Part shown: positions 22,921 to 50,128 of the stretch, one piece after another
Numbering within the stretch: the first letter of the stretch is position 1
How the letters are laid out: every line of letters begins with the position of its first letter
Assembly (NCBI GenBank): GCA_004298115.1
Contig: SCRJ01000007.1
Location: 1 to 50,782 of the forward strand
Length of the DNA stretch: 50,782 nt
From: Acidobacteriota bacterium
GTDB taxonomy: Bacteria > Acidobacteriota > Thermoanaerobaculia > Thermoanaerobaculales > Thermoanaerobaculaceae
Direction: 5' to 3'
The notes under the pieces: model-generated
Databases searched by the model: none
The model's input: only the letters and a program-made list of their open reading frames with translations
Told to the model about the DNA's origin: nothing
Position numbers and translations under genes: made by a program

Positions 22921-23646
22921 TCACGCCCCCGGCGCGCGGCCGCCCCGCCCGGCGGACACGAGCGCGACCAGCGCCGCGGGATCCAGCAGCGTGGCCACCG
23001 GGCCGGTGACCCTGACGACGCCGTCCTCGGCGAGGCGGCGGAAAGTGCGCGAGAGCACCTCGGGCCCCGTCCCGCACACCGCGGCGATCAGCCGCTTGGG
23101 CTCCGCGAGGCGGATCTGGGCGCCGCGGGCGAGCGCTGGGCCGGCGCGCGAGAACGCCGACAGGAGGTATCCGGCCACCCGCTCCTCGACGGTGTGGAGC
23201 GTGAGCCCCTCGACCAGATCCGCGAGCCGCCGCAACCACACCGACATCGAGGCGAGCAGCGCGAGCGCGACGTCGGGCCGGCGGCGGAGCAGGTCCAGCA
23301 GCGCCGGGCGCGGCACCACGGCCAGCTCCCCGCCCTCGATCACCTCGGCGGTGGCGGGGAAGACGCCGGGACCGAACACGGCGGCCTCCGCGAAGGAGGC
23401 CGGGGCGCGGACGAGGTGGAGGACCTGCTCGCGGCCGTCCGGACCGCCGCGGCTCAGCTTCACCCGGCCGGCGAGGAGCAGCGGCAGGAACTCCGCCGCG
23501 TCCCCCTCCGAGAACAGCAGGTCGCCGGCGCGCACCCGGCGCGACCCGCACAGGCGCGCGACGTCCGCGAGCAGCGCCGGCGGCAGCGCCGCGAACAGCG
23601 GGATTCGGCGCAGCCCCGCCGGGAGGTCGGTCGCCACGCACGTCAT
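22921..23646 (-). CDS. Crp/Fnr-family transcription regulator
   Basis: Regulator of 241 residues from ATG 23646. It has a cyclic-nucleotide-binding-like beta-roll (about 20-130), dimer helix, and winged HTH with GTGPEVLSRTFRRL. The recognition helix E-x2-SR pattern is that of FNR/FixK/DNR proteins, which bind TTGAN6TCAA-type sites, rather than CRP. It lacks the four FNR-type cysteines (only Cys3 and Cys33 in the N-terminal part), so it is not an obvious iron-sulfur oxygen sensor. It is divergent from the Rieske-cytochrome b operon 76 bp away and is a candidate regulator of it. Confidence 0.85.
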   Translation of the reverse strand: MTCVATDLPAGLRRIPLFAALPPALLADVARLCGSRRVRAGDLLFSEGDAAEFLPLLLAGRVKLSRGGPDGREQVLHLVRAPASFAEAAVFGPGVFPATAEVIEGGELAVVPRPALLDLLRRRPDVALALLASMSVWLRRLADLVEGLTLHTVEERVAGYLLSAFSRAGPALARGAQIRLAEPKRLIAAVCGTGPEVLSRTFRRLAEDGVVRVTGPVATLLDPAALVALVSAGRGGRAPGA

Positions 23647-23663
23647 TGTGCCAGATGCGACGC

Positions 23664-23692
23664 TTGACGCCTGCCCCCCGACCTCGGACAAT
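23664..23692 (+). promoter_or_regulatory. Candidate sigma70 promoter of the Rieske-cyt b operon
   Basis: TTGACG (23664-23669), a 17-bp spacer and GACAAT (23687-23692) stand 30 bp before the Rieske ATG. The -35 lies 18 bp from the divergent Crp/Fnr start. Confidence 0.6.
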
Positions 23693-23721: not shown

Positions 23722-24174
23722 ATGCGTGCTGCCAACGAAACACCAGCGGTTTCCCGCCGCACCGCCTTGAACTGGTTGCTCGGGACGTCTCTGGGCGCGA
23801 CCCTGGTGGCCGCGCTGTACCCCGTCTTCCGCTTCGTCATCCCTCCCCGGGTCGCCGAGGCGCCGGTCAACCGCGTGCTTGCCGGCAAGCTCTCCCAGCT
23901 ACCGGACAACTCGGGGAAGATCTTCCGCTTCGGGTCGAAGCCCGCGATTCTGATCCGGACGCCGACCGGCGAGGTGCGCGCGTTCTCGGCGGTGTGCACG
24001 CACCTGAACTGCACCGTGCAGTACCGGCCCGACTTCCAGCACATCTGGTGCGCCTGCCACAACGGCCAGTACGACCTGCAGGGGAAGAACATCTCGGGCC
24101 CGCCGCCGAAGCCGCTGGAGGCGTACAAGGTGGACATCGCCGGGGACGACGTGTACGTCACCAGGGGGGCATGA
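23722..24174 (+). CDS. Rieske [2Fe-2S] protein of a bc-type complex
   Basis: Protein of 150 residues with an N-terminal SRRTALNWLL segment, twin-arginine-like, and one membrane anchor (about residues 15-40). The soluble cluster domain follows. Cluster box 1 is CTHLNC (92-97) and box 2 is CACHNG (110-115), giving two Cys and two His ligands plus the disulfide cysteines. It transfers electrons from menaquinol at the Qo site to a cytochrome c. It is followed after 3 bp by cytochrome b and then a nonahaem cytochrome, so it is part of one complex. Confidence 0.93.
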   Translation: MRAANETPAVSRRTALNWLLGTSLGATLVAALYPVFRFVIPPRVAEAPVNRVLAGKLSQLPDNSGKIFRFGSKPAILIRTPTGEVRAFSAVCTHLNCTVQYRPDFQHIWCACHNGQYDLQGKNISGPPPKPLEAYKVDIAGDDVYVTRGA

Positions 24175-24177
24175 ACG

Positions 24178-25260
24178 ATGCGCGCGCTCGACAAGCTCTG
24201 GCACGCCCTCGACGAGCGCCTCGAGCTCGACCCGATCGTCGAGTTCGTCGCGCACAAGGTGGTGCCGCGCCACCGCCACTCCTGGGCCTACTACTTCGGC
24301 GGCCTCACGATGTTCTTCCTCTTCGTCCAGATCGCGACCGGGATCCTGCTGCTGCTCTACTACCGCCCGACCGCCGAGGCGGCGTTCGAGAGCGTCCAGT
24401 TCATCGTGACCCGGGTCCCGTTCGGCTGGCTCGTGCGCTCCGTCCACTCGTGGTCGGCCAACCTCATGATCCTGTCCGCGTTCGCCCACATGTTCTCGGT
24501 CTACTTCATGGGCTCGTACGCGAAGCCGCGGGAGCTGACGTGGTGGAGCGGGTTCGCGCTGCTCGGCCTCGCCATGGGGTTCGGGTTCTCCGGCTACCTG
24601 CTCCCCTGGAACACCCTTTCGTACTTCGCCACCCAGGTGGGGACCGACATGGTGAGCAAGGTGCCGTTCGCCGGGGCGTGGCTGCTCAAGTTCCTGCGCG
24701 GCGGCAGCGAGGTGACGGGCGCGACGCTCACGAGGTTCTTCGGCTTCCACGTCGCGGTGCTGCCGATGCTCACCGCCGTCCTGCTCGCCGGTCACCTCGC
24801 GTTCATCCAGCGCCAGGGGATGCACGTACCGTCGTCGCTCGAAGAGGAGGCGAAGAGGCGCAAGCCGATCCGCTTCGTGCCCAACTTCATGCTCCGCGAG
24901 GGGGTCGTCTGGCTCCTCGGCCTGGCGGCGCTCGCGGCGCTCGCCGCGTTCTTCCCGTGGGAGCTCGGCACCAAGGCCGACCCGTTCGCCAGCGCACCGG
25001 CGGGGATCAAACCCGAGTGGTACTTCCTGTTCATGTTCGAGACCCTCAAGCTCCTGCCCGCACACCTGTTCGGCATCGAAGGGGAGCTCCTCGGACTCGG
25101 CGCCTTCGCGGCGGGCGGTCTGGTCTGGTTCCTCGTGCCGGTCCTCGACCGCGGCCGTCCCGGAGGCGGCCGCGGCCGCGCCTTCTTCGTGCTGGGCTGG
25201 CTCGTCCTCGCCTACATCGTCGGCTTCACGTTCGCCTCGTTCGCGGGGGTGTTCAAATGA
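24178..25260 (+). CDS. Cytochrome b (fused N- and C-terminal domains)
   Basis: Membrane diheme cytochrome b of 360 residues. The four haem-b ligands are His90 and His104 in one helix and His191 and His206 in another. The Qo-site PEWY motif is at 279-282 ([15 protein letters not shown]). Both the four-helix N-terminal part and the three-to-four helix C-terminal part are in one chain, unlike the split b6/IV form. It oxidises menaquinol. Its stop overlaps the next ATG (ATGA), coupling it to the multihaem gene, which probably replaces cytochrome c1. Confidence 0.94.
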
Positions 25261-26525
25261 CACGCCAGCTCGCCAACGCCACCCTCGCGATCCTGCTCGC
25301 CGCCGGCGCGCGCGCCGCGGCGCCGCCGGCCGCGGCCGCACCGGTTCGCGCCGTCAAGGATGCCTGCCTCACCTGCCACGCCAAGCTCAGCGACGAACGC
25401 CTGCGCAAACCGGCCGAGCTGGCGAGCGCCGACATCCACCAAACCCAGGGGATCTCGTGCGCCGGGTGCCACGGCGGCAACCCCGCGGCCGACGACCCGA
25501 CGGTCGCGATGGATCCGCGCAAGGGGTTCGTCGGCAAGTTCACGCCGCAGGCGATCCCCGAGATGTGCGGCTCGTGCCACTCCAACGCCGCCTACATGCT
25601 GCGCTACGCGCCCAACATCCCCACCGACCAGCTCTCGCAGTACCGCACCTCCAAGCACGGCCTCGCCCTCGCCAAGGGCGCCACCGACGTCGCGGTCTGC
25701 TCCTCGTGCCACGGCGCCCACGGCGTCCGGCCGCCCTCCGACGCCCGCTCGCCCGTGTACCCGACGCGGATCGTGGACACGTGCGCGCGCTGCCACGCTG
25801 ACGTGGCGCTGATGAGCCGCTACGGCATCAAGGGCAACGAGGTCGCGGAGTACAAGAAGTCCGTTCACTACGCCGCGCTGGTCGAGAAGAACGACCTCTC
25901 CGCGCCGACCTGCAAGTCGTGCCACGGCGCGCACGGCGCCACCCCGCCCGGCGTCTCCTCAGTCGCCAACGTCTGCGGGACGTGCCACGTCTCGCAGCTC
26001 GAGCGCTTCGACCAGTCGCCGCACAAGGACGCGTTCGCCGCCCTGGAGCAGCCCGCGTGCGAGGCCTGCCACAGCAACCACGCGATCGGGCACCCGCAGG
26101 ACTCCTGGATCGGCGTCGCCGACAAGCAGGTGTGCGGCGCCTGCCACAGCGCGGGCGACGCCGGCGCGGTCGCGGCGGGGGCCATCTCCGGCGCGCTCGC
26201 CAAGGCCACCGCGGCCGAGACCGCCGCCCGCGCCCGCGTCGGCAAGGTCAAGCGGGCGGGGATGCTCATGGACGCCGCCGACGTCAAGCTCGAGGACGCC
26301 CATCAGGCGTACATCATGGCGACGGTCGAGATCCACACCGTTGCCGTCGCCCGGGTGGAGAAGCAGACCGAGGTCGCGCTCGCCGCCACGGCGGCCGCCG
26401 ACAAGGACGCCGCCGCCGCCGAGGCCGAGATCCGCTACCGCCGCACCGGCCTGTTCGTGTCGCTCATCGTCATCGCGGTCGCGATGGTCACGCTCGCCCT
26501 CAAGGTCAGGAGCATGGAGCGCTGA
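25257..26525 (+). CDS. Membrane-anchored nonahaem c-type cytochrome
   Basis: 422-residue cytochrome with an N-terminal signal sequence (about 1-29) and nine CxxCH motifs: CLTCH, CAGCH, CGSCH, CSSCH, CARCH, CKSCH, CGTCH, CEACH, CGACH. The last haem is followed by about 90 Ala-rich helical residues. A C-terminal membrane segment ([19 protein letters not shown]) then anchors it facing the periplasm. Its place after Rieske and cytochrome b suggests that it is the electron exit of the complex, handing electrons to periplasmic carriers or to the MtrA-like decahaem proteins. This type of bc complex resembles the Cbc complexes of metal-reducing Geobacter; the exact family is not certain. Confidence 0.9.
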
Positions 26526-38670: not shown

Positions 38671-38755
38671 GTGACATTTCATGTTCGTTGTTGTCAAATG
38701 GTCATATCTTGACAAATGTCACGAAATCGTCTTTCATCTGTGACCAGGCTTCACA
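38671..38755. promoter_or_regulatory. AT-richer regulatory region with nested inverted repeats before the first porin-cytochrome module
   Basis: Outer arms GTGACATTT (38671-38679) and AAATGTCAC (38714-38722) are perfect complements; inner arms TTGTCAA (38691-38697) and TTGACAA (38709-38715) likewise. TTGAC-AAAT-GTCAC (38709-38722) has the same half-sites and spacing as a site upstream of the second module (43631-43644). TGTGA-N7-TCACA lies at 38739-38755. TTGACA at 38709 with TTTCAT 17 bp on is one possible promoter. Binding by a Crp/Fnr protein is inference. Confidence 0.6.
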
Positions 38756-38809
38756 AAAGTGAGCCTCGTCGATTCACGGTGAGCTTCGTCGTCTCGCTCG
38801 GGAGGGTTC

Positions 38810-40714
38810 ATGAAGGGCACGGTTCGGTGGCTGACCTGCTTCTGCTTCTGCTTCTGCTTCGGCGTCGCGGCGCTGGGGTACGGCGAGGAGTACGGAAGCA
38901 TCGGCGTCGGCTACGCATGGCTGCACCAGAGCGGCAACAGGAACGCCTTCGCCAGCCAGTACGATCTGTCACAGGGTCTCTTCCTCGAGAACCTCCAGCT
39001 CGACCTGCGGCGCGCGCTGGCGGGGTTCGACCGCTTCGAGGTCAAAGCCTCCGGGTTCGGCGGCGACCCGTTCCAGCACGCCTCGCTCAGGGTCGTGGAC
39101 TGGGACCGCGAGTGGACGCTGAACCTCGACTACACCCGCCGCGAGGCCGTCCTGCCGTCGCCCTCGCTCGACCTGGCGCTCGCCGGCGGCGCCGCGCCGG
39201 GCACCCCCGGGCTCGACGACGGCGGCCGGTTCAGCATCAGCCGCTGGACCGGCTCCCTCACCTGGGACGGCTGGAAGGCGGCCCGCCTCCGCCTCGACCT
39301 GCGCGACGTGCAGCGCAGCGGGTCGCGCCTGGTCCCGTTCTACGGCCTCGGTGGGCCGTACGTGGCGCGCACCTCGCTCGACGAGCGCGTCCAGGAGGCC
39401 GGGATCTCGCTCGAGACCCGCTCCTGGCCAGTCAAGCTGCTCATCGAGCAGGACGTCACCAAGTACACGCGCGAGCCGCGCGGGGGGGTCGGGAACAACG
39501 GCCAGCCGCTGACCGGCGCCGACCCCGACCTGCTGGCGACGTACACGATCGGCCGCGATTCCAATACCGTTCCAACCACCCGGCTGTCGGCGGTCTACAC
39601 CAGCGGACGCTTCGAGTTCCTGGGCCAGGGGCTCTACCGTCGCGACCGCCTCGACGCCAACCACGACCACGACCTTACCTCGTTCGCAATCGGCGGGGGC
39701 GCGGTGGGTCAGATCAGCTACCTCGACGCGCTCATGGGCTCCGCCGACACCGACACCAAGCTCGCCGACCTCCGCCTCGGCTTCGCCGCGACCCCCTGGC
39801 TGACGCTGCGCGCCCGCGGCCACTGGGCCGACGTCGCGACCGACAGCACGCTCGTCGGCCTCAACGCGCTGCAGCTGACCGGGCCGGGCGGGACTCTGGA
39901 TTTCTCGGTCCCCGTCGACGACCGCGGCTACCTCGACCGCACCGACAAGGACGTCGCCGGTGAGGCCGACCTCCACAGCGGGCCGTTCGGTCTCGTCGTC
40001 GCCTACCACGACGGCTCGCGCGAGATCGCCTGGCGGCACGGCGGCGACTACGCGCCCGCAGGCGTGACCCGCGACGCCAGCGGTTGGAGCGCCACGGCGT
40101 CGCTGGCGCTCGGCCGGACGCTCACCGCCAAGGTCGGGTACGACGACTCGAGCTTCGAGCGGTACGTGTTCCGCACCGACCCGGAGACGGTCACGCGGCT
40201 GTGGGCGAAGCTCTCGGCACGCCCGGCCGCCGGCTGGGAGATCGACGCGCATGGGTCGCGCGAGCGTATGGACAACCCCTCGCAGGTGGCGGCGCTCAAC
40301 CGCCCCACCGACGCGCTCGGGGTCGCGGCGACGTACACGGCGGCCGGCGGCGCTTTCGCCAGCCTGAGCGTCGATTCGCTCACGCTCACCAGCGACGTCG
40401 CGATCTCGTACTGGGCGCCGCTGCTGACCGCGGCGGTCTCGCACTACGAGACGGACCTGCTGACCACGAGCCTGCGCGCGGCGTTGCCGATCGGCAAGGC
40501 GCTGCGCCTGAGCGGCGGCGGCGTCTACCTCAAGGACCGCGGCGACACGCTGCCGTTCACCTCCAGGGCGTACGACCTCGAGGTCGAGACGTCCGGGCCG
40601 TTCGCCACCAGGCTCGCGATCTTCGGCAACCGCTGGACGTACGACCTCAAGAGCTTGCCCGACCAGAACTACGACGTCACCCGCTACGGGATCTCCGTGC
40701 GGCGGAGGTTCTAA
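38810..40714 (+). CDS. MtrB/PioB-like outer-membrane beta-barrel, module 1
   Basis: 634 residues with a signal peptide of unusual make-up (TCFCFCFCFGV, coded by four CTGCTT hexamers). Then come many alternating hydrophobic/polar strands, and a C-terminal Phe (YGISVRRRF) as expected for a beta-barrel inserted by Bam. FDRFEVKASGFGGDPFQHASLRV near residue 75 is shared in pattern with the second barrel (LFDRLRIDAAGIGADPQASFRL). Such barrels hold a decahaem cytochrome to carry electrons across the outer membrane. It is followed after 4 bp by a decahaem gene, which supports this role. Substantial sequence divergence from Shewanella MtrB is expected. Confidence 0.8.
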   Translation: MKGTVRWLTCFCFCFCFGVAALGYGEEYGSIGVGYAWLHQSGNRNAFASQYDLSQGLFLENLQLDLRRALAGFDRFEVKASGFGGDPFQHASLRVVDWDREWTLNLDYTRREAVLPSPSLDLALAGGAAPGTPGLDDGGRFSISRWTGSLTWDGWKAARLRLDLRDVQRSGSRLVPFYGLGGPYVARTSLDERVQEAGISLETRSWPVKLLIEQDVTKYTREPRGGVGNNGQPLTGADPDLLATYTIGRDSNTVPTTRLSAVYTSGRFEFLGQGLYRRDRLDANHDHDLTSFAIGGGAVGQISYLDALMGSADTDTKLADLRLGFAATPWLTLRARGHWADVATDSTLVGLNALQLTGPGGTLDFSVPVDDRGYLDRTDKDVAGEADLHSGPFGLVVAYHDGSREIAWRHGGDYAPAGVTRDASGWSATASLALGRTLTAKVGYDDSSFERYVFRTDPETVTRLWAKLSARPAAGWEIDAHGSRERMDNPSQVAALNRPTDALGVAATYTAAGGAFASLSVDSLTLTSDVAISYWAPLLTAAVSHYETDLLTTSLRAALPIGKALRLSGGGVYLKDRGDTLPFTSRAYDLEVETSGPFATRLAIFGNRWTYDLKSLPDQNYDVTRYGISVRRRF

Positions 40715-40718
40715 CACC

Positions 40719-41597
40719 ATGCGCAAGAGCCTGCTCGCATCGATCGCTCTCCTCGCCGCAACGCCGTTGCTGGCGGCGCTGCCCAAGGGCTGGGTCGGCC
40801 GGGAGACCTGTACCACCTGTCACGAGGACACCGCCAAGGCGTTCGTCGCCGGCCCGCACGGGCGCGCGATGGCCGACCGCGCCCCGGCCAACCTCCTCAA
40901 ACTCGAGGGGAGCACGCTCGACCTTTCGTGCGAGTCGTGCCACGGACCCGGCGAGGCGCACGCCAACGACCCGAGCACAACGAACATCCGCACGCTCAAA
41001 GAGGTGAGCACCCGCGAAGCCTCGGCCGGGTGCGTCCTCTGCCACACGGCTCAGAAGGAAGGCCTGGCGACGCGCACCCCGGCGCACGCGCGCGCGGGGA
41101 TCGCCTGCCTCGATTGCCACGTGTCGGGGCACGGCGCCCCGGCCGCCGAGCCGCTGCTGGCGCGCCCCCGCGCCACGCTGTGCACCCCCTGCCACGCGAC
41201 CGAGGCGGCGCAGTTCGCACTGCCCTACGCGCACCGCGAGGGCACCAGGCCGTTCGAGTGCACGTCGTGCCACAGCGCCCACGGCGGCACCACCGTCCGC
41301 GGCCGCATCGAGGAGGATGGGCGGCAGCGCTGCGTGACGTGCCACACCGAGAAGGCGGGCCCGCACGTCTACCCGCACCCGCCGCTGGCCGTCGACGGCT
41401 GCGCCGCGTGCCACCGCCCGCACGGCTCGCCGAACCCGTACCTGCTCACCCGGCCCTCGACGACGCAACTCTGCCTCGAGTGCCACACCGACACGCCGTC
41501 GTTCCACGACCTCTCCAAACCAACGTACCGCGACTGCGTGAGCTGTCACGCCGCGGTCCACGGTTCGCAGCGGGACCCGAAGCTTTTCCAGGAGTAG
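40719..41597 (+). CDS. Decahaem c-type cytochrome, DmsE/MtrA-like, module 1
   Basis: 292 residues, signal peptide ending near LLAALPKG, ten CxxCH motifs: CTTCH, CESCH, CVLCH, CLDCH, CTPCH, CTSCH, CVTCH, CAACH, CLECH, CVSCH. Spacing and length match the MtrA/DmsE family, in which the haem wire lies within the MtrB-type barrel. It ends HAAVHGSQRDPKLFQE, similar to the second decahaem (HVAVHGSNSSPMLLK), showing the two are paralogues. Coupled to the barrel gene (4-bp gap). Confidence 0.92.
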   Translation: MRKSLLASIALLAATPLLAALPKGWVGRETCTTCHEDTAKAFVAGPHGRAMADRAPANLLKLEGSTLDLSCESCHGPGEAHANDPSTTNIRTLKEVSTREASAGCVLCHTAQKEGLATRTPAHARAGIACLDCHVSGHGAPAAEPLLARPRATLCTPCHATEAAQFALPYAHREGTRPFECTSCHSAHGGTTVRGRIEEDGRQRCVTCHTEKAGPHVYPHPPLAVDGCAACHRPHGSPNPYLLTRPSTTQLCLECHTDTPSFHDLSKPTYRDCVSCHAAVHGSQRDPKLFQE

Positions 41598-41630
41598 CAG
41601 TGGGCAAGACCCAGAAAGGAGAAATGGAAC

Positions 41631-43409
41631 ATGCGTAAGGCAACAGTCGTTCTCGCCGCCATGCTGATCGCGAGCACAGCGATGGCGGGGAGCACCATGG
41701 TTCGCTCGCACCTGCCCGCGGGGGTGACGACGGCCGTGAACGTCGACATCGCCGGCCTCTCGGCGAGGCTCACGGCCATGTACGGCAGCCCCCAGGCCGC
41801 CTCGTACCTCGGCGCCGACGTCTGCCTGGCCTGCCACGGCGACGATAAGGCCACTTGGAGGCACACGCGTCACGCGCAGGCGCTGCGCCGGCCGATGGGC
41901 CAGTGGACGCTCGTGGACGGCAAGGGCGTCATCGCCAACCAGGCGCACGGCACGAAGGACGACTTCATGATGGGGGTCGACCTCTCCACCGTGGGCTCGT
42001 TCTCCGCCTACGGCGCCAACGCGCCGAAGCTGTCGTACGACGCCGCGACCGACACGTACTACATGACGATCGGCGCCTTGAAGTGCCAGCTGGTCGCCAC
42101 GTGGACCGGCAGCGCCGACCAGGACGGCCAGCGCTTCATCCTCCGCGTCCCGGTCACCGACACCGACACCAAGTTCTCCAAGGCGCTGTACTTCGCTCCG
42201 GCGACGTACTCGCGGAGCCAGGGCTGGATGCCGGCGTCGGGGTGGTACGACTCCAGTTACAACCCGAAGTTCGGCGCGAGCACGACCACCTCGCAGCTCG
42301 TCGCCGCCGGCGGCCCCTCGAGCCACACCAAGAACTGCGTCGGCTGCCACGTGACCGGCGTCCGCTCGATCACGATCAACGCGGCCGGCGAGGCCGTGTT
42401 CCAGGGGTACTACGCGACCTTGTACAATGCCAACGACCCGGACTACGTGGACTACAACGGCGACGGCAACCTGCTGCTCACCGGCATCGAGTGTGAGGCC
42501 TGCCACGGCCCGGGTGCGCAGCACGTCCTCGGCGGGGGCGACATCAGCAAGATCGTCAACCCGGCCAAGCTGACCGGCGCGCAGTCCGCCGAGATCTGCG
42601 GCCAGTGTCACATCCGCGGCAAGTCCGTTCCAGCCGGGACGTACGCGTGGCCGTACCACGACGACACCGGCACGATGTGGCAGCCCCAGCCGGTCAACAC
42701 GGCATGGATCCCGCTCGCGAGCTTCCAGGGCACCGGCGCCCTCACCTACTGGGGCGACGGCGTGCTCCCCTCCAACTCGCGCCCGTGGGACCAGTACATG
42801 CTTTCGGCGCACGGGCAGACCCACTACGGTCAGAACGGCTCCTCCGAGCCGTGCTCGGCGTGCCACGACCCGCACGACAAACAGCAGGTGGCGCAGCTGA
42901 ACACCTCGATCACCGATGCCCGCAGTGGGCTCGTCATCCCAACCTCGCCCGAGAACGATACCCTCTGCCTCGCCTGCCACGCGACGCACGGGCCGTTCGC
43001 CAACATCACCAAGGCGCAGGTCGCCGACTTCGCCACCAACGAGGAGGCGATCGGCGCGGTGGTTTCGGCCCACACCCACCACCCGTTCGCGCCCGAGCGC
43101 ATGATGGGGCTGTCGCGCTGCACGACCTGCCACATGTCGTCGACCGGCGGCCACACGTGGTTCGCCACCAAGCCCCAGGACACCCTCACGTACCTCAACG
43201 CGGGCGTGAAGGACGCGAAGGGGAACTACGTCGGCTACCCGAACGCCTGCGCCGACTCGTGCCACAACTCCCAGGTCAACCTCTTCGGCCTCGGCCTCGA
43301 TCCGGCGCCGACGACCTGGACCAAGGACTACGACAAGAACCTCGCGACCATCCTCGTCACCTACTACGGCCCCGGCGGGACCTGGTGGAACACCACGCCG
43401 ACGCCGTAA
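41631..43409 (+). CDS. Large multihaem cytochrome with seven CxxCH and one CxxxCH, module 1
   Basis: 592 residues with a signal peptide (cleavage near STAMAGST). Haem motifs CLACH, CVGCH, CEACH, CGQCH, CSACH, CLACH and CTTCH, plus CADSCH at residues 540-545, which has three residues between the cysteines. The long stretch between the first and second motif (residues about 70-240) is beta-rich and haem-free. The place after the MtrB-MtrA pair is where MtrC-like extracellular terminals occur, but it is not of OmcA/MtrC type; I do not recognise the family with confidence. RBS AAAGGAGA at 41614. A strong terminator follows at 43440. Confidence 0.8.
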   Translation: MRKATVVLAAMLIASTAMAGSTMVRSHLPAGVTTAVNVDIAGLSARLTAMYGSPQAASYLGADVCLACHGDDKATWRHTRHAQALRRPMGQWTLVDGKGVIANQAHGTKDDFMMGVDLSTVGSFSAYGANAPKLSYDAATDTYYMTIGALKCQLVATWTGSADQDGQRFILRVPVTDTDTKFSKALYFAPATYSRSQGWMPASGWYDSSYNPKFGASTTTSQLVAAGGPSSHTKNCVGCHVTGVRSITINAAGEAVFQGYYATLYNANDPDYVDYNGDGNLLLTGIECEACHGPGAQHVLGGGDISKIVNPAKLTGAQSAEICGQCHIRGKSVPAGTYAWPYHDDTGTMWQPQPVNTAWIPLASFQGTGALTYWGDGVLPSNSRPWDQYMLSAHGQTHYGQNGSSEPCSACHDPHDKQQVAQLNTSITDARSGLVIPTSPENDTLCLACHATHGPFANITKAQVADFATNEEAIGAVVSAHTHHPFAPERMMGLSRCTTCHMSSTGGHTWFATKPQDTLTYLNAGVKDAKGNYVGYPNACADSCHNSQVNLFGLGLDPAPTTWTKDYDKNLATILVTYYGPGGTWWNTTPTP

Positions 43410-43439
43410 CCGCTCGTTGATCGCGGCACCGATTCCTTC

Positions 43440-43468
43440 GCGGGGGGCGCACGCCCCCCGCATTTTTG
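43440..43468 (+). terminator. Rho-independent terminator after module 1
   Basis: A 10-bp perfect stem (GCGGGGGGCG / CGCCCCCCGC) with a CA loop is followed by ATTTTTG. This is a classic intrinsic terminator, 30 bp after the stop codon. Confidence 0.9.
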
Positions 43469-43533
43469 TCCTCTGAACTCCGGCATCACGCCCACCAAGC
43501 GCCCGTTGCGACTCGCTGGCCCTGTCGCCAAAC

Positions 43534-43644
43534 TTGGACACCTCTCAGATTGTCTCGGTATAGTTGAGATATGTTGTTTCGTAAGAGGTTTCATTACAAA
43601 CCCTTGACAAGCCTTGTCAATGGCATTAACTTGACGATCGTCAC
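43534..43644 (+). promoter_or_regulatory. Promoter/operator region of module 2
   Basis: An AT-richer 110 bp. It holds TGGACA (43535) with TATAGT 18 bp on (43559-43564), a fair sigma70 promoter. TTGACAAG-C-CTTGTCAA (43604-43620) is a perfect palindrome. TGACGATCGTCA (43632-43643) is another, also readable as TTGAC-GATC-GTCAC (43631-43644), the same arrangement as at 38709-38722. The rest of the 289-bp gap after the terminator contains no gene I can support. Confidence 0.65.
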
Positions 43645-43698
43645 CGTAGCGGAACGGCAGTCGCTCGCCGGACCGGACGCGGAAGGGGGACGAGGCAA

Positions 43699-45789
43699 AT
43701 GATGCTACTTCATCTTGGCATGGCGCTGCTGGCGGCCAACAACGTGCTCGTATCGTCACACATCACCGGCAACGTGACACGACGGGTGCACACGCCGGCG
43801 ACCGCGGCGGTCTACACCTCGGCGCAGGCCGAGCACTACCTCACCGCCGAACAGATCGCCTACATCCGGCCCGGCCTGAACATCACGGTCGGCAGCGTGG
43901 TGATCGGCGCCGACAACAAGCCGGTCGTCGACGTCACCTTCACCGACGACGGCGGCCAGCCCCTCGACCGCGCCGGGGTGCTCACGCCGGGGGCGGTCTC
44001 GATGTCGTTCATCCTCGACTGGTACGACCCGGCGACCCGTCACTACACCGACTACTACACCAACACGGTGACGAGCCCGATCACGAACAACACCGCGCAG
44101 CAGGCGACAACCGCGGCCGGCACATGGGAAGATCTCGGCGTCGGCCACGCCCGTTTCCACTTCACGAAGGCGCTGCCGACCGGGTACGACGTGACCAAGA
44201 CGCACACGCTCGGCATCTACGCCACGCGCGTCATCGCCCTCACCGACCCGATCGTCATCAGCAAGACGTACGTCAAGGACGTCGAGTACGACTTCCGGCC
44301 CGACGGCCAGGCGGTCACCAACACCTGGAACAAGATGACCGACGCGACGTGCAACCAGTGCCACGACCCGCTCTCGGCCCACGGCGAGACCGGCCGCCGG
44401 GACATCAAGCTCTGCGTCCTCTGCCACAACCCCCAGACGGTTGACCCCGACACCGGCAACTCCGTGGACGCCAAGGTGATGATCCACAAGATCCACATGG
44501 GCAGCAGCCTGCCGTCGGTCAAGGCCGGCCACCCGTATCAGATCATCGGCTACCGGCAGTCGGTGAACGACTTCTCCGACGTCGTCTTCCCGCAGGACAT
44601 CCGCAACTGCACCACCTGCCACCAACCGAGCTCGCCGCAGGGGTTCGTCTGGTACAGCTACCCGTCAATGGCGGCGTGCGGCTCCTGCCACGACGCGATC
44701 GACTGGACCACGGGGGCCAACCACAAGGGCGGCCCGCAGGCCGACGACTCGGCGTGCGCCTCCTGCCACCAGCCGCAGGGCGAGAACGAGTTCGACGCCG
44801 GAATCGTCACCGCGCACACGATCCCGACCCGGTCGGCCCAGCTCAAGGGCCTCAACATCCAGATCATCGGCATGACGAACGTGGCGCCGGGGAGCAAGCC
44901 GACGGTGACGTTCGCCGTGACCAACAACGACGGCTCGTTCGTCGACCCGTCCACGCTCGCCAGCTTCAGCTTCATCTTCGGCGGCCCGACGACCGAGTAC
45001 GCCGGCTACCTCTCCGAGCGCGTCGGCAAGAACGCGGTCTCGACCGCCACCAGCTCGACGTTCACGTTCCCGGATGCGATCCCGGCGGACGCGAGCGGCA
45101 CCTGGACGCTCTCGGCCGACCTCTACCGCACCGTCACCCTCAACCCGGCGCCCGAGACCGCGAGCGAGGCGACGGTCCGCGAGGCGGCGCAGAACCCGAT
45201 CTACAACGTCGCCATCACCGACGCCCAGCCGGTGGCGCGCCGCGACGTGGTCGACATCAACAAGTGCAACGTCTGCCACAACCAGCTCGCCCTCCACGGC
45301 GGCCAGCGCTTCAAGGTGCAGGAGTGCGTGATCTGCCACAACCCCAACAACAACGACAGCACCTACCGGCCCGCCGACCAGGCCCCGCCGGAGACGATCC
45401 ACTTCAAGTACCTCATCCACCGCATCCACACCGGCGAGAACATGACGATCCCGTACACGATCTACGGCTACCACGGCAGCGTCAACAACTTCAACGACGT
45501 CGTCTTCCCCGGCGACCGGCGCGACTGTCTGAAGTGCCACGCGACCGTTCCGGCCGGCCAGCAGCAGACGTTCGAGGTGCCGCTGCCCGACGGCGTGCTG
45601 CCCACCCCGACGCTGCGCAACCCGTACGTCCAGCTGATGCAGCCCACCGCGGCGGCGTGCCTCTCCTGCCACGACGAGCGGCAGGCGGCGGCGCACGCGG
45701 TCACGATGACGGCCTCGTTCGGCGAGGCCTGCGAGGTCTGCCACGGCACCGACGCCGACTTCGCGGTCGCCAAGGTTCACGCGCGGTAG
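43699..45789 (+). CDS. OmcA/MtrC-family decahaem c-type cytochrome
   Basis: 696 residues. Ten CxxCH motifs in two pentahaem groups: CNQCH, CVLCH, CTTCH, CGSCH, CASCH, then CNVCH, CVICH, CLKCH, CLSCH, CEVCH. Beta-rich domains precede each group (about 40-200 and 385-500), as in OmcA/MtrC cytochromes with alternating Greek-key and haem domains. DATCNQCHDPLSAHG and NKCNVCHNQLALHGGQRFK are family-typical. The N-terminus (MMLLHLGMALLAANN) is short and has no lipobox Cys, so it is not obviously a surface lipoprotein like Shewanella MtrC. It is the likely extracellular terminal of module 2. Confidence 0.9.
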   Translation: MMLLHLGMALLAANNVLVSSHITGNVTRRVHTPATAAVYTSAQAEHYLTAEQIAYIRPGLNITVGSVVIGADNKPVVDVTFTDDGGQPLDRAGVLTPGAVSMSFILDWYDPATRHYTDYYTNTVTSPITNNTAQQATTAAGTWEDLGVGHARFHFTKALPTGYDVTKTHTLGIYATRVIALTDPIVISKTYVKDVEYDFRPDGQAVTNTWNKMTDATCNQCHDPLSAHGETGRRDIKLCVLCHNPQTVDPDTGNSVDAKVMIHKIHMGSSLPSVKAGHPYQIIGYRQSVNDFSDVVFPQDIRNCTTCHQPSSPQGFVWYSYPSMAACGSCHDAIDWTTGANHKGGPQADDSACASCHQPQGENEFDAGIVTAHTIPTRSAQLKGLNIQIIGMTNVAPGSKPTVTFAVTNNDGSFVDPSTLASFSFIFGGPTTEYAGYLSERVGKNAVSTATSSTFTFPDAIPADASGTWTLSADLYRTVTLNPAPETASEATVREAAQNPIYNVAITDAQPVARRDVVDINKCNVCHNQLALHGGQRFKVQECVICHNPNNNDSTYRPADQAPPETIHFKYLIHRIHTGENMTIPYTIYGYHGSVNNFNDVVFPGDRRDCLKCHATVPAGQQQTFEVPLPDGVLPTPTLRNPYVQLMQPTAAACLSCHDERQAAAHAVTMTASFGEACEVCHGTDADFAVAKVHAR

Positions 45790-45801
45790 CAACGGATCAC
45801 G

Positions 45802-45830
45802 TCCCGGGCGGCCGCAGCGGCCGCCCGGGA
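45802..45830. promoter_or_regulatory. Very stable intercistronic hairpin between the MtrC-like and MtrA-like genes
   Basis: TCCCGGGCGGCCGC and GCGGCCGCCCGGGA are exact reverse complements about a central A, forming in practice a 13-14 bp stem. No T-run follows. It lies 12 bp after the upstream stop codon and 23 bp before the next ATG, so it may protect the upstream mRNA or cut expression of the downstream genes. Confidence 0.75.
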
Positions 45831-45853
45831 TCGTCCGATGAAAGGTGGATGGG

Positions 45854-46738
45854 ATGCGCACATGGCATCGACTGTTTAGCGCCCTCAGCGTGTCGGCTCT
45901 GGTCGCTCTGGGGACGGGCCAGGCCGCCGGGCAGCCTGCGAAAGGCCACGACGTCGCCGCCTTTGCTCCGTGCTCTGACTGCCACGACACCGTGGCGGCA
46001 CACTTCCCGAACAACCCGCACGCGCGCCTCGGCGACAGCAAGGCCGTGTGCGAGAGCTGTCACGGCGACACCGCGAAGCACCTCGCCAACCCCGACGCGA
46101 GTACGATCGCGGTACCCAAGGGCGCCGCGGGCGCCAAGATCTGTCTGGGCTGCCACCAGAAGTCGCCCGAGTTCGACCGCGCGGGCCACGGCTTCCATGC
46201 GGCCGCGGCGGTCAACTGCACCGACTGCCACTCGGTCCACGGCAGCCCGGCCACGGCGCCGGCGCTGCTGCGGACGACGCCGTCGACGCAGCTGTGCGAG
46301 AGCTGCCACCCGGCGCAGAAGAACCTCTTCGCCAAGCCGTACGCCCACCACCTCGCGCGCGGCGGCATGGAGTGCGTCTCCTGCCACAACCCGCACGGCG
46401 GACGTGGCGAGCACAACCTCAAGACCACCTCCGCGGGCGAGCTGCCCTGCCTGTCCTGCCACACCGAGAAGCAGGGGCCGTTCGTCTTCTCGCACGTGTC
46501 CGGGTTCGAGGGCAACTGCCTCACGTGCCACGAGCCGCACGGCTCCAACAACCCCAAGATGCTCATCCGCGCCCGCGTGGACCAGGTCTGCCTCGAGTGC
46601 CACACGACGCTTCCGGCGGGGACGCTCGGAGCGCAGCCGCCGTCGTTCCACGACCTGCGCAGCGCGCGTTACCAGAACTGCACCGTCTGCCACGTCGCGG
46701 TCCACGGTTCCAACAGCTCCCCGATGCTCTTGAAATAG
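45854..46738 (+). CDS. Decahaem c-type cytochrome, DmsE/MtrA-like, module 2
   Basis: 294 residues from the ATG at 45854 (AAGGTGG upstream). Signal peptide ending near GQAAGQPA. Ten CxxCH motifs: CSDCH, CESCH, CLGCH, CTDCH, CESCH, CVSCH, CLSCH, CLTCH, CLECH, CTVCH. Size and layout match MtrA/DmsE and its paralogue at 40719-41597. It would sit in the barrel encoded next (10 bp downstream) and link periplasmic donors with the OmcA/MtrC-like protein. Confidence 0.92.
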   Translation: MRTWHRLFSALSVSALVALGTGQAAGQPAKGHDVAAFAPCSDCHDTVAAHFPNNPHARLGDSKAVCESCHGDTAKHLANPDASTIAVPKGAAGAKICLGCHQKSPEFDRAGHGFHAAAAVNCTDCHSVHGSPATAPALLRTTPSTQLCESCHPAQKNLFAKPYAHHLARGGMECVSCHNPHGGRGEHNLKTTSAGELPCLSCHTEKQGPFVFSHVSGFEGNCLTCHEPHGSNNPKMLIRARVDQVCLECHTTLPAGTLGAQPPSFHDLRSARYQNCTVCHVAVHGSNSSPMLLK

Positions 46739-46748
46739 GAGACGAGCG

Positions 46749-48689
46749 ATGGCCAAGCGTTTCGCGTACTTCGTGGGTCTGCTCGTGGTCGCGTCCTGGG
46801 GCGCCACCGCAGGCGCGCAGTCGACCCAGTTCTCCCTCGATCTCGGCCACCAGTGGACGGACGTGAGCGGCAACAACGACGTCTACCGCAGCCAGATCAA
46901 CGAGGGCCAGGGGCTGCTGCTCCGCTCGTTCTCCCTGACCACCGTGGACAACTCCCAAGGTCCCAAGCTCTTCGACCGTCTGCGCATCGACGCGGCGGGG
47001 ATCGGCGCCGACCCGCAGGCGAGCTTCCGCCTCACCGCCGGCCTCGCGCACGTCTACGATCTGCGCTTCTCGTATCGCCATTCGGAGTTCTACAACGCGC
47101 TCCCCGAGGTCGCCAACCCGCTCCTCGCCTCGGGGCTGATCCCCGGCGAGCACACGATCAACCGGGCGCTCGACACGATCAACCTCGACGTCGCTGTCCT
47201 TCCCGACGGCGCCGTGACGCCGCTGTTCGGCTACCAGTGGACCCGCTACTCGGGGCTGGCGCGCTCCTCCGCGGCGGTCGGCCAGGACGAGTTCCGGCTT
47301 CTCTCCGACCTCGGCGAGACCACCCAGGAGGTTCGGGGCGGGGTCGGCTTCAAGGTCGGCAGCTTCTCGGGCCGGATCCTCCAGGGCTGGAGGTTCTTCG
47401 ACTCCACCCAGCTCGACCGGCTCCTCCCCGGCGCCGGGGCCGGCAACAATGCCCAACCGGTGCTCGGCCAGCCGATCACGCTCACCGGCTACACGGGGCG
47501 CGACGACACCAGCGGCTCCACCCCCGTCACCACCGGCTACCTGACCGGAAACCTGGCGGACGGCGTCCGCCTCGTGGCGTCGTTCGCCCGCGCCGACTTC
47601 TCCTCCGGCACGGACGAGTACGAGGTCGCGTCCGGCTCGCTCGCCTCGTTCAAGCTCGCCCGCTTCTACTCCGGCCTCTCCGAGTCGGTGCAGGCGCACG
47701 CCCAGAGTCTGGACTGGCAGGGCAACGCCCGCGTCGAGGCGGAGATCATCGACGGTCTCGACCTCAGCGTCGGCTACACCAAGCGGCACCGCGAACTCGA
47801 CGGCCTCGCGACGATCGCCGACCTGTACGCCAACACCGTCAACTTCAGCGGCGCCGATCCCAAGAGCGTCTCGACCCTGATCAACGCCCAGACCGCGATG
47901 GAGCGCAACGAGAACACCGTCGAGGCGCGGCTGTCGTCGAGCAACCTCGGGCCGCTGCGCCTGTGGGCCGGGTACGCGAGGGCCGATGAGAGCCTGAACG
48001 TCTCCCCGGCGGCGGCCGAGATCGTCGTTCCCGGCGGGCAGGGCGGCCGCTTCGATCGCGTCGTCAAGCGCACCTCGGCCGGCGCGACGCTCGCTCTTTC
48101 CGACGTCAAGCTCGCGGTCGACTGGAAGAAGGACGACGCCGACAACGCGGTGGTCCGCACCGACTTCCTCAACCTCGAGCGCTGGCGCGGGCGCGCCAGC
48201 TGGCGCGCGGGCAGCTTCCTCCAGCTCGTCGGCACCGCCGAACGCATCAAGGCGGAGAACCCCACGCCGGGGATCGACCAGGCCTCCACCACCAAGCACT
48301 GGGAGGGGAACGTCGTCCTCACCCCGGTCACCGCGCTCTCGGTCAGCCTCGGCTACGGCGTGTACAAGGTGGACAGCGCGATCACGATCCGGGTGCCGCA
48401 GGACTTCAGCCTCGAGCCGTCGCTGTACACGGAGGACGGCACCTCCAAGGATGCCTCACTCACGTACAAGGTCGGGCGCTTCGGCTTCGACGCCGGCTAC
48501 TCGCGCTTCGAGAACAGCGGCGACCTCGCCCTCAAGCTCGACCGCACCACGCTCGGATGCGACTTCGACATCACCCCGAAGGTGGGCGCGTCACTGCGCT
48601 TCGACAAGCACATGTACCGGGAGATCGCGCTGCCGATCGACAACTTCGACGCCAAGATCTACGGCGTCTTCCTGCGCTGGCACAACTAG
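46749..48689 (+). CDS. MtrB/PioB-like outer-membrane beta-barrel, module 2
   Basis: 646 residues; signal peptide (MAKRFAYFVGLLVVASWGATAGAQ) and then a mature start STQFSLDLGHQWTDVSG. Alternating beta strands fill the protein. LFDRLRIDAAGIGADPQASFRL near residue 75 parallels the first barrel. The C-terminus FLRWHN does not end in Phe but has an aromatic terminal strand. It probably houses the preceding decahaem and forms the outer-membrane conduit. A strong terminator follows at 48716. Confidence 0.82.
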   Translation: MAKRFAYFVGLLVVASWGATAGAQSTQFSLDLGHQWTDVSGNNDVYRSQINEGQGLLLRSFSLTTVDNSQGPKLFDRLRIDAAGIGADPQASFRLTAGLAHVYDLRFSYRHSEFYNALPEVANPLLASGLIPGEHTINRALDTINLDVAVLPDGAVTPLFGYQWTRYSGLARSSAAVGQDEFRLLSDLGETTQEVRGGVGFKVGSFSGRILQGWRFFDSTQLDRLLPGAGAGNNAQPVLGQPITLTGYTGRDDTSGSTPVTTGYLTGNLADGVRLVASFARADFSSGTDEYEVASGSLASFKLARFYSGLSESVQAHAQSLDWQGNARVEAEIIDGLDLSVGYTKRHRELDGLATIADLYANTVNFSGADPKSVSTLINAQTAMERNENTVEARLSSSNLGPLRLWAGYARADESLNVSPAAAEIVVPGGQGGRFDRVVKRTSAGATLALSDVKLAVDWKKDDADNAVVRTDFLNLERWRGRASWRAGSFLQLVGTAERIKAENPTPGIDQASTTKHWEGNVVLTPVTALSVSLGYGVYKVDSAITIRVPQDFSLEPSLYTEDGTSKDASLTYKVGRFGFDAGYSRFENSGDLALKLDRTTLGCDFDITPKVGASLRFDKHMYREIALPIDNFDAKIYGVFLRWHN

Positions 48690-48715
48690 ACCGCCGGCCT
48701 CGTTCCGCCTTGCCG

Positions 48716-48750
48716 ACCTGGGCTCCCGCCGTTGGGAGCCCAGGTTGTTT
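48716..48750 (+). terminator. Rho-independent terminator after module 2
   Basis: A 12-bp stem (ACCTGGGCTCCC / GGGAGCCCAGGT) with loop GCCGTT, followed by TGTTTTC. It lies 26 bp after the barrel gene. Confidence 0.88.
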
Positions 48751-48759
48751 TCAGCCCTC

Positions 48760-48797
48760 TTGACAACTATTACGATATAAACCATCATTAATATCGT
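48760..48797 (+). promoter_or_regulatory. Promoter and operator of the Rrf2-cysK pair
   Basis: TTGACA at 48760-48765 is a consensus -35. ACGATAT (48772-48778) and ATATCGT (48791-48797) are a 7-bp inverted repeat 12 bp apart, and the right arm includes the first two bases of the GTG start. The -10 is not obvious at 17 bp. The layout suits autoregulation by the Rrf2 protein; no ribosome-binding site is visible. Confidence 0.6.
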
Positions 48798-49182
48798 GAA
48801 TGAGACCGAAGCCTACCGGCTGGATGCGCTCCTCGAGTTGGGCCGGGCCTGGCCGCAGTCGTTGACCGTCGCCGAGATCGCCCGCCGCCGGGCGATCCCG
48901 GTCAAGTTCCTCGCTCGTTTGCTCGGGGAGTTGGCGCGGGAGGAGCTGGTGGTGACGGCCAGGGGGGCGCGCGGCGGCGTCCGCCTCGCCGCCGCACCGG
49001 ACGACGTCGCCGTGGCCCGGCTGATGCGCGTCCAGCCGCAACCGGAAGCCGGGGGACCGGCGGTGCGCTTCCTGTGGGCCCGCACCGCCGAGGCGCAGGT
49101 GCGCGCGCTCGCCGGGCTCACCCTCGCGGCGCTGCTCGCCGTCGAGGACGAGGCCAACGCCACCGCCGACTTCGCCATCTAG
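48796..49182 (+). CDS. Rrf2-family transcription regulator
   Basis: 128 residues; winged-HTH of the Rrf2 family: [57 protein letters not shown]. It has no cysteine at all, so it cannot bind an iron-sulfur cluster as IscR or NsrR do. In this it resembles CymR, which controls cysteine metabolism and works with CysK in Firmicutes. The next gene is cysK (13 bp gap). The start GTG at 48796 has no clear ribosome-binding site and overlaps the inverted repeat, so the mRNA may be leaderless. Confidence 0.85.
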
Positions 49183-49195
49183 GAATGGGGGGACC

Positions 49196-50128
49196 ATGCG
49201 AATCGCGTCGGACATCACGAGGCTCATCGGCAACACGCCGCTGGTGCGGCTCAACCGTGTCACCTCGGGGTGCGTCGCCACCGTGGCGGCCAAGCTCGAG
49301 TTCTTCAACCCAGCCCACTCGGTCAAGGACCGGATCGGCATCGCGATGGTGGAGGCGATGGAGCGCGCGGGCACGCTCGTGCCCGGCACCTCGGTGATCG
49401 TGGAGCCGACCTCGGGCAACACCGGGATCGCGCTCGCGATGGTCGCCGCCGCCCGCGGGTACCGCTGCGTCATCGCGATGCCGGAAAGCGTCTCGCTGGA
49501 GCGCCGTAAGGTGCTCAAGCTGCTCGGCGCCGAGTTGATCCTCACGCCGGCGTCCGAGGGGATGAAGGGCGCCATCCGCAAGGCGCTCGAGCTGCTCGAG
49601 GAGATCCCCGGCGCCGCGATGCCGCAGCAGTTCGAGAACCCCGCCAACCCCCAGATCCATGCGACCACGACCGCCGAGGAGCTGTGGCGCGACACCGACG
49701 GCGGCATGGATATCTTCGTCGCCGGGGTCGGGACCGGCGGCACCATCACCGGCGTCGGCCGGGTCTGGAAGCAGCGCAAGCCCGCCGTCCGCATCGTCGC
49801 CGTGGAGCCGGCCGGCTCGCCGGTCCTCTCCGGCGGCCAGCCGGGCTCGCACAAGATCCAGGGTCTCGGCGCCGGCTTCGTTCCCGCCAACCTCGACACC
49901 GGGGTCGTCGACGAGGTGATCAAGGTCGGCAACGACGAGTCGTTCGCGATGTCGCGCCGACTCGCCCGCGAGGAGGGGATCCTCGCCGGTATCTCGTCCG
50001 GCGCGGCCGCGTACGCGGCGCTCGAGGTCGCGCGCCGGCCGGAGAACGCCGGCAAGCTCGTCGTCTTCGTCGTGCCATCGACCTCCGAGCGCTACATCTC
50101 CACCGAGCTGTTCGCCGGGCTCGACTGA
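49196..50128 (+). CDS. cysK: Cysteine synthase A (O-acetylserine sulfhydrylase)
   Basis: 310 residues, PLP fold-type [13 protein letters not shown] near residue 11, [13 protein letters not shown] with the PLP Lys at about 44, [20 protein letters not shown], and [13 protein letters not shown] (phosphate-binding loop). It makes cysteine from O-acetylserine and sulfide. [18 protein letters not shown] and [12 protein letters not shown] are also standard. The Rrf2 gene precedes it on the same strand, so control by that regulator is likely. Confidence 0.96.

Follow-up and report, generated by a model that had tools for sequence, protein, structure and literature searches.

Two adjoining porin-cytochrome modules in an Acidobacteriota genome raise the question of what their unlike terminal cytochromes are for, and whether the first module is a conduit in its own right. 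The window, by which we mean the whole stretch of 50,782 nucleotides that was analysed, comes from an assembly of 3.97 Mb that is 96% complete. Six open reading frames between 38810 and 48689 form the locus (Table 1). All are intact, lie on the + strand and have a coding-type third-position GC of 0.92-0.97. They make up two operons in tandem, head to tail; an earlier note on this DNA had called the modules back-to-back. The opposite internal gene order reported there is confirmed, as module 1 runs barrel B1, decahaem A1, octahaem C1, and module 2 runs OmcA/MtrC decahaem C2, decahaem A2, barrel B2. The note had also proposed that both barrels and both decahaem proteins are paralogous and that the terminal cytochromes are unrelated, and this holds: A1 and A2 share 38% identity, B1 and B2 share 28% over 249 aa with family profiles that align over 607 columns (E 1.4e-50), and C1 resembles C2 in the haem motifs alone. 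The two modules themselves are borne out by the six intact genes and by orthologous operons of the same order in many other genomes. Because such operons recur so often, the arrangement is far beyond chance. Two details of the reading frames are worth recording. A2 starts with GTG, or with ATG at 45854, and the signal peptide of B1 contains the run CFCFCFCF (38837-38857), in which four cysteines alternate with phenylalanine.

Table 1. Features of the two-module locus, in positions of the window.
Feature	Position	Strand	Description
Palindrome-like element upstream of module 1	38709..38722	+	TTGACAAATGTCAC; counterpart upstream of module 2
B1, outer-membrane barrel of module 1	38810..40714	+	634 aa; MtrB-like position; C-terminal end RYGISVRRRF
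A1, DmsE/MtrA-type decahaem cytochrome of module 1	40719..41597	+	292 aa; 10 CxxCH
C1, OcwA-type octahaem cytochrome	41631..43409	+	592 aa; 7 CxxCH and 1 CxxxCH (CADSCH)
Intrinsic terminator of module 1	43440..43461	+	Hairpin and T run after C1; hairpin also in same-genus loci
Palindromic element upstream of module 2	43631..43644	+	TTGACGATCGTCAC; TTGAC-NNN-YGTCAC pattern
C2, OmcA/MtrC-family decahaem cytochrome	43699..45789	+	696 aa; 10 CxxCH; TIGR03507
Hairpin between C2 and A2	45801..45831	+	No T run; -40.2 kcal/mol, z -5.8
A2, DmsE/MtrA-type decahaem cytochrome of module 2	45845..46738	+	297 aa; 10 CxxCH; TIGR03508
B2, outer-membrane barrel of module 2	46749..48689	+	646 aa; profile homology to B1
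Terminator-like hairpin after module 2	about 48714..48755	+	14-bp stem, then T-rich stretch; -30.9 kcal/mol, z -4.1

Adjoining modules of opposite order are already known from the Shewanella mtrDEF-omcA-mtrCAB cluster, in which two decahaem-barrel modules with paralogous A and B proteins also have their terminal cytochromes on opposite sides (PMC8805035). MtrF and MtrC of Shewanella are, however, sister proteins of one family, whereas C1 and C2 are unrelated. The present locus further differs in the barrel-decahaem-C1 order of module 1 and in having no OmcA gene between the modules.

C2 belongs to the OmcA/MtrC family (455.3 bits against TIGR03507, cut-off 209.3). The earlier view that the Mtr/Pio family explains the MtrA-MtrB pairs holds only in part: A2 passes the DmsE/MtrA-type model TIGR03508 (197.8 bits, cut-off 192.2), A1 falls just short of the same cut-off (183.9 bits, E 3.7e-54), and neither B1 nor B2 passes any curated MtrB/PioB model. 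Among the relatives of B2, 5 of 17 match OMP_b-brl, 5 of 17 match Porin_4 and 1 of 17 matches MtrB_PioB (PF11854) at 7.9e-5, while a single one of the 20 relatives of B1 reaches TIGR03509, at E 0.047. A PDB search with the barrel profiles gave no MtrB match. The identification of B1 and B2 as barrels rests on their mutual homology, their position and these weak model matches. The Geobacter GSU2203 family (NF041028) matches A1 and A2 moderately and the GSU2204 family (NF041027) matches B1 weakly, all far under the curated cut-offs, and CxxCH motifs are absent from B1. In protein kinds and in the C-A-B order, module 2 agrees with the MtrCAB of Acidobacteriia designated group 5 by Baker et al. 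(PMC8805035); B2 is too divergent for the curated MtrB models. Among the OmcA/MtrC loci retrieved from this class, nearly all show the C-A-B order. We regard module 2 as an ordinary mtrCAB gene cluster whose barrel is divergent.

The terminal cytochrome of module 1, described earlier as of no recognised type, can be assigned to the OcwA-type multihaem cytochromes of the NrfA/c554 superfamily. A profile built from 27 homologues of C1 was searched against the PDB and matched best the entry 6i5b (E 1.5e-23), which we take to be OcwA from Thermincola potens, followed by 6qvm, presumably OmhA (E 4.3e-9), and cytochrome c554 (1bvb, E 3.7e-8). The single C1 sequence reaches OcwA at E 7e-11. In 6i5b, haems and His-His pairs lie where the published description of OcwA places them (PMC6703420). 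OcwA (TherJR_2595) and OmhA of Carboxydothermus ferrireducens are the best relatives of C1 with solved structures. Other candidates were rejected. C1 is not a member of the MtrC family (16 bits against TIGR03507, cut-off 209), it is not an NrfA nitrite reductase as it contains no CxxCK active-site haem motif, and a UshA-like identity (NF041198) was dismissed. C1 also has a partial PF22113 match of 37 bits, which spans a segment with three haem motifs (residues 228-329).

In total, C1 carries eight haem motifs, compared with nine haems (all CxxCH) in OcwA and eleven in OmhA, and its seven CxxCH motifs followed by a final CxxxCH are kept in all 46 full-length homologues found in Acidobacteriota; the last motif of OcwA is CxxCH. 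The two proteins have in common the c554-like first four haems and an insertion between haems 1 and 2 of about 165 residues in C1, a gap of 162-182 residues in the alignment, at which OcwA and MccA carry an extra beta domain (PMC6703420). Their profile alignment is strong at haems 3-8 and weak at haems 1 and 2. Relative to OcwA, C1 is without one haem of the second half; in alignments by three MAFFT modes it is haem 7 of OcwA that has no counterpart, and the haem spacings (37 and 51 vs 25 and 46) would also fit the loss of haem 5. OcwA has a long C-terminal three-helix bundle; in C1 the sequence after the last haem is short, at about 47 residues. The stretch that matches His-His 380/381 of OcwA, at open haem 5, reads H-x-(H/N)-H in nearly all C1 homologues, and the one that matches His-His 281/282, at open haem 2, has HH in about one third of the family and no HH in the C1 of the window. 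AlphaFold predictions of C1, alone or with three close relatives, gave a mean pLDDT of 30 and no usable fold. Larger relatives of C1 also exist: G024 and G019 encode 15-haem proteins of 933-973 aa with a C1-like N-terminal half (L060:6771-9569 and L061:6735-9653).

This assignment bears on where C1 works. OcwA serves as a terminal reductase at the cell surface, and its architecture is that of a c554 fused to a pentahaem cytochrome of the NrfA type; structurally it is a member of the NrfA/HAO/MccA superfamily, and it reduces hydroxylamine and, slowly, nitrite (PMC6703420). Among the relatives of OcwA are enzymes that act on nitrogen and sulfur compounds. The earlier note had held that its reading would be refuted if C1 matched a well-described periplasmic enzyme, for instance a nitrite or hydroxylamine oxidoreductase. 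Our result goes half way towards this: C1 matches that superfamily through OcwA, but OcwA acts at the cell surface, and C1 itself travels with an MtrAB-like pair. One could still propose that C1 works in the periplasm as a respiratory or detoxifying enzyme of the nitrite, hydroxylamine or sulfite type, for which A1 and B1 are a mere electron partner (for example in uptake from outside) or are just co-transcribed. The activities of OcwA would suit such an enzyme, and so would the signal peptide of C1, a plain Sec-type one as judged by eye, with no lipobox. The lipobox is, however, also absent from C2 and its relatives, the MtrC-type proteins of the same class, and the nearest relatives with solved structures are surface Fe(III) reductases, while the missing CxxCK motif is a further point against this proposal. 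As C1 has no lipobox, its anchoring at the surface is putative.

The distribution of C1 is informative on both sides of this issue. C1 is present in 31 of 396 Acidobacteriota genomes from many families (E 1e-30, with a few partial matches). A barrel and a decahaem gene adjoin C1 in 31 of the 46 full-length cases, with the order B-A-C1 in 28 and with C1 in front in 3; in one of these 3, the C1 gene is an additional copy ahead of a complete module. In the remaining 15 of 46, no barrel-decahaem pair lies in the fetched stretch, some of these genes standing alone and some lying near contig ends; no common partner was evident among the reading frames beside the genes that stand alone, which were viewed by eye. 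C1 can therefore act apart from the barrel-decahaem pair, a point in favour of the periplasmic proposal. The strict co-inheritance of C1 with a dedicated barrel-decahaem pair throughout the phylum argues the other way. In a tree of 53 decahaem proteins, those linked to C1 are split from those linked to C2 by one branch (support 100/99), and the linkage needs 1 change vs 16.8 in shuffles. A tree of 37 barrels has the same split between C1-linked and MtrC-linked proteins (support 100/100). These trees separate the two kinds fully, which shows that terminal cytochrome, wire and sheath are inherited jointly. Taking all this into account, we regard a periplasmic C1 as unlikely.

The gene orders of module 1 and module 2 each recur in many other genomes, and we saw the two modules side by side only in the window and in the same-genus assemblies G005, G002 and G007. 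Among the 60 nearest genomes, the sets with C1 and with OmcA/MtrC overlap only partly, and in seven genomes of 93-99% completeness C1 is present while OmcA/MtrC gave no match (G001, G008, G017, G019, G023, G024 and G050). If the module exports electrons, C1 rather than MtrC must therefore serve it in these genomes. Given the conserved operon, the separate branches and the near-complete genomes with module 1 but without OmcA/MtrC, module 1 looks like an autonomous MtrAB-type conduit with an octahaem cytochrome of the OcwA type in place of MtrC. The earlier suggestion of a conduit type distinct from MtrCAB is thus supported. In G002, the second C1 copy that precedes the complete module (L036:12603-14351) is 93% identical to the C1 of the window, and the own C1 of that module is only 74% identical to it, a pattern of similarity that suggests exchange or duplication of modules.

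Each module ends with a terminator of its own, as had been proposed, although the two were detected differently: the hairpin after module 2 was found by its folding energy and was not listed by the terminator pattern scan. The very stable hairpin between C2 and A2 has equally stable counterparts in the G005, G002 and G003 loci, one of them quite different in sequence. This suggests a kept role for the C2-A2 hairpin, for example in the control of transcript levels. Each module has a TTGAC-NNN-YGTCAC element upstream of it, and same-genus loci carry similar sequences in the corresponding positions. This pattern, which was derived from the same two upstream sites, has 11 matches in the genome vs 1 for the reversed pattern, and most of the other matches lie inside genes. 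Joint control of both modules through this element is possible, and the matches are suggestive at most. Downstream of module 2, at 48760-50128, there are genes for an Rrf2-family regulator and a cysteine synthase-like protein, preceded by an ACGATAT...ATATCGT inverted repeat.

Shared control would suit the idea that the two modules are redundant and serve the same acceptor. Against this stand the deep separation of the two kinds of decahaems and barrels, the lack of relationship between C1 and C2, and the occurrence of the modules independently of each other across genomes, and redundancy seems to us rather improbable. The two modules may instead serve different acceptors.

We propose that the locus encodes two independent trans-outer-membrane conduits, and that in module 1 an MtrAB-like pair feeds C1, which fills the extracellular position of MtrC; we put the probability of this reading at roughly 70%. 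By homology with MtrAB, decahaem A1 would sit inside barrel B1 and so span the outer membrane. A1 would then pass electrons to C1 at its predicted extracellular site, and C1 would hand them to an acceptor outside the cell, such as a mineral or a humic one. Open-coordinate haem sites in C1 might also reduce small molecules. The same parts could in principle run inward, with module 1 oxidising Fe(II) or a cathode in the manner of PioAB/MtoAB and C1 as the electron acceptor at the surface. Homologues of MtrAB do run both ways, and the direction cannot be read from sequence (PMC8805035), but OcwA and OmhA, the relatives of C1, are reductases, and an inward module 1 appears very unlikely. Elsewhere in the window, 23722-26522 encodes a Rieske protein and a cytochrome b together with a nonahaem cytochrome that has a membrane segment at its C-terminus, a set that resembles a bc-type quinol-oxidising complex, with a divergent gene for a Crp-type regulator at 22921-23691. 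This complex may be an electron source for the conduits.

Beyond the two-conduit reading, one may ask whether Acidobacteriota have a distinct, jointly inherited class of outer-membrane conduit in which the MtrAB-like wire ends in a catalytic octahaem enzyme of the OcwA/NrfA superfamily, so that respiratory catalysis takes place extracellularly, both on minerals and on small molecules. We offer this as a tentative idea that is possible but for now doubtful.

Much of what the locus contains has precedents. Adjoining modules of opposite order, MtrAB cores with other partners and OcwA-like proteins of monoderms are already known. DmsEF(AB), PioAB and MtoAB have MtrAB-type cores with a terminal partner other than MtrC, or with none. 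To our knowledge, none of them has an OcwA-type octahaem partner. The published OmhA tree also contains 'various multihemes from Acidobacteria' (PMC7829351). What appears to be new in module 1 is the combination of an MtrAB-like pair with an OcwA-type octahaem cytochrome in one conserved operon, for which we found no published description in the open literature searched; the reports on GSU2203/2204 and on Acidobacteriota conduits among it do not describe such a module either.

Module 1 joins two lines of extracellular respiration that have been held separate, the MtrAB wire of diderm bacteria and the OcwA-type reductases of monoderm bacteria. OcwA and OmhA come from monoderm cells without a porin conduit, whereas C1 is encoded beside a barrel-decahaem pair, and the literature describes the cell type of the ancestor of these reductases as unclear (PMC7829351). 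With its final CxxxCH, C1 also provides a sequence marker for conduits that are missed by MtrC-based surveys. One such survey listed only five matches in Acidobacteriia (PMC8805035); module 1, by contrast, is present in genomes without any MtrC. The finding supports the concept of MtrAB as a core onto which various terminal cytochromes are set.
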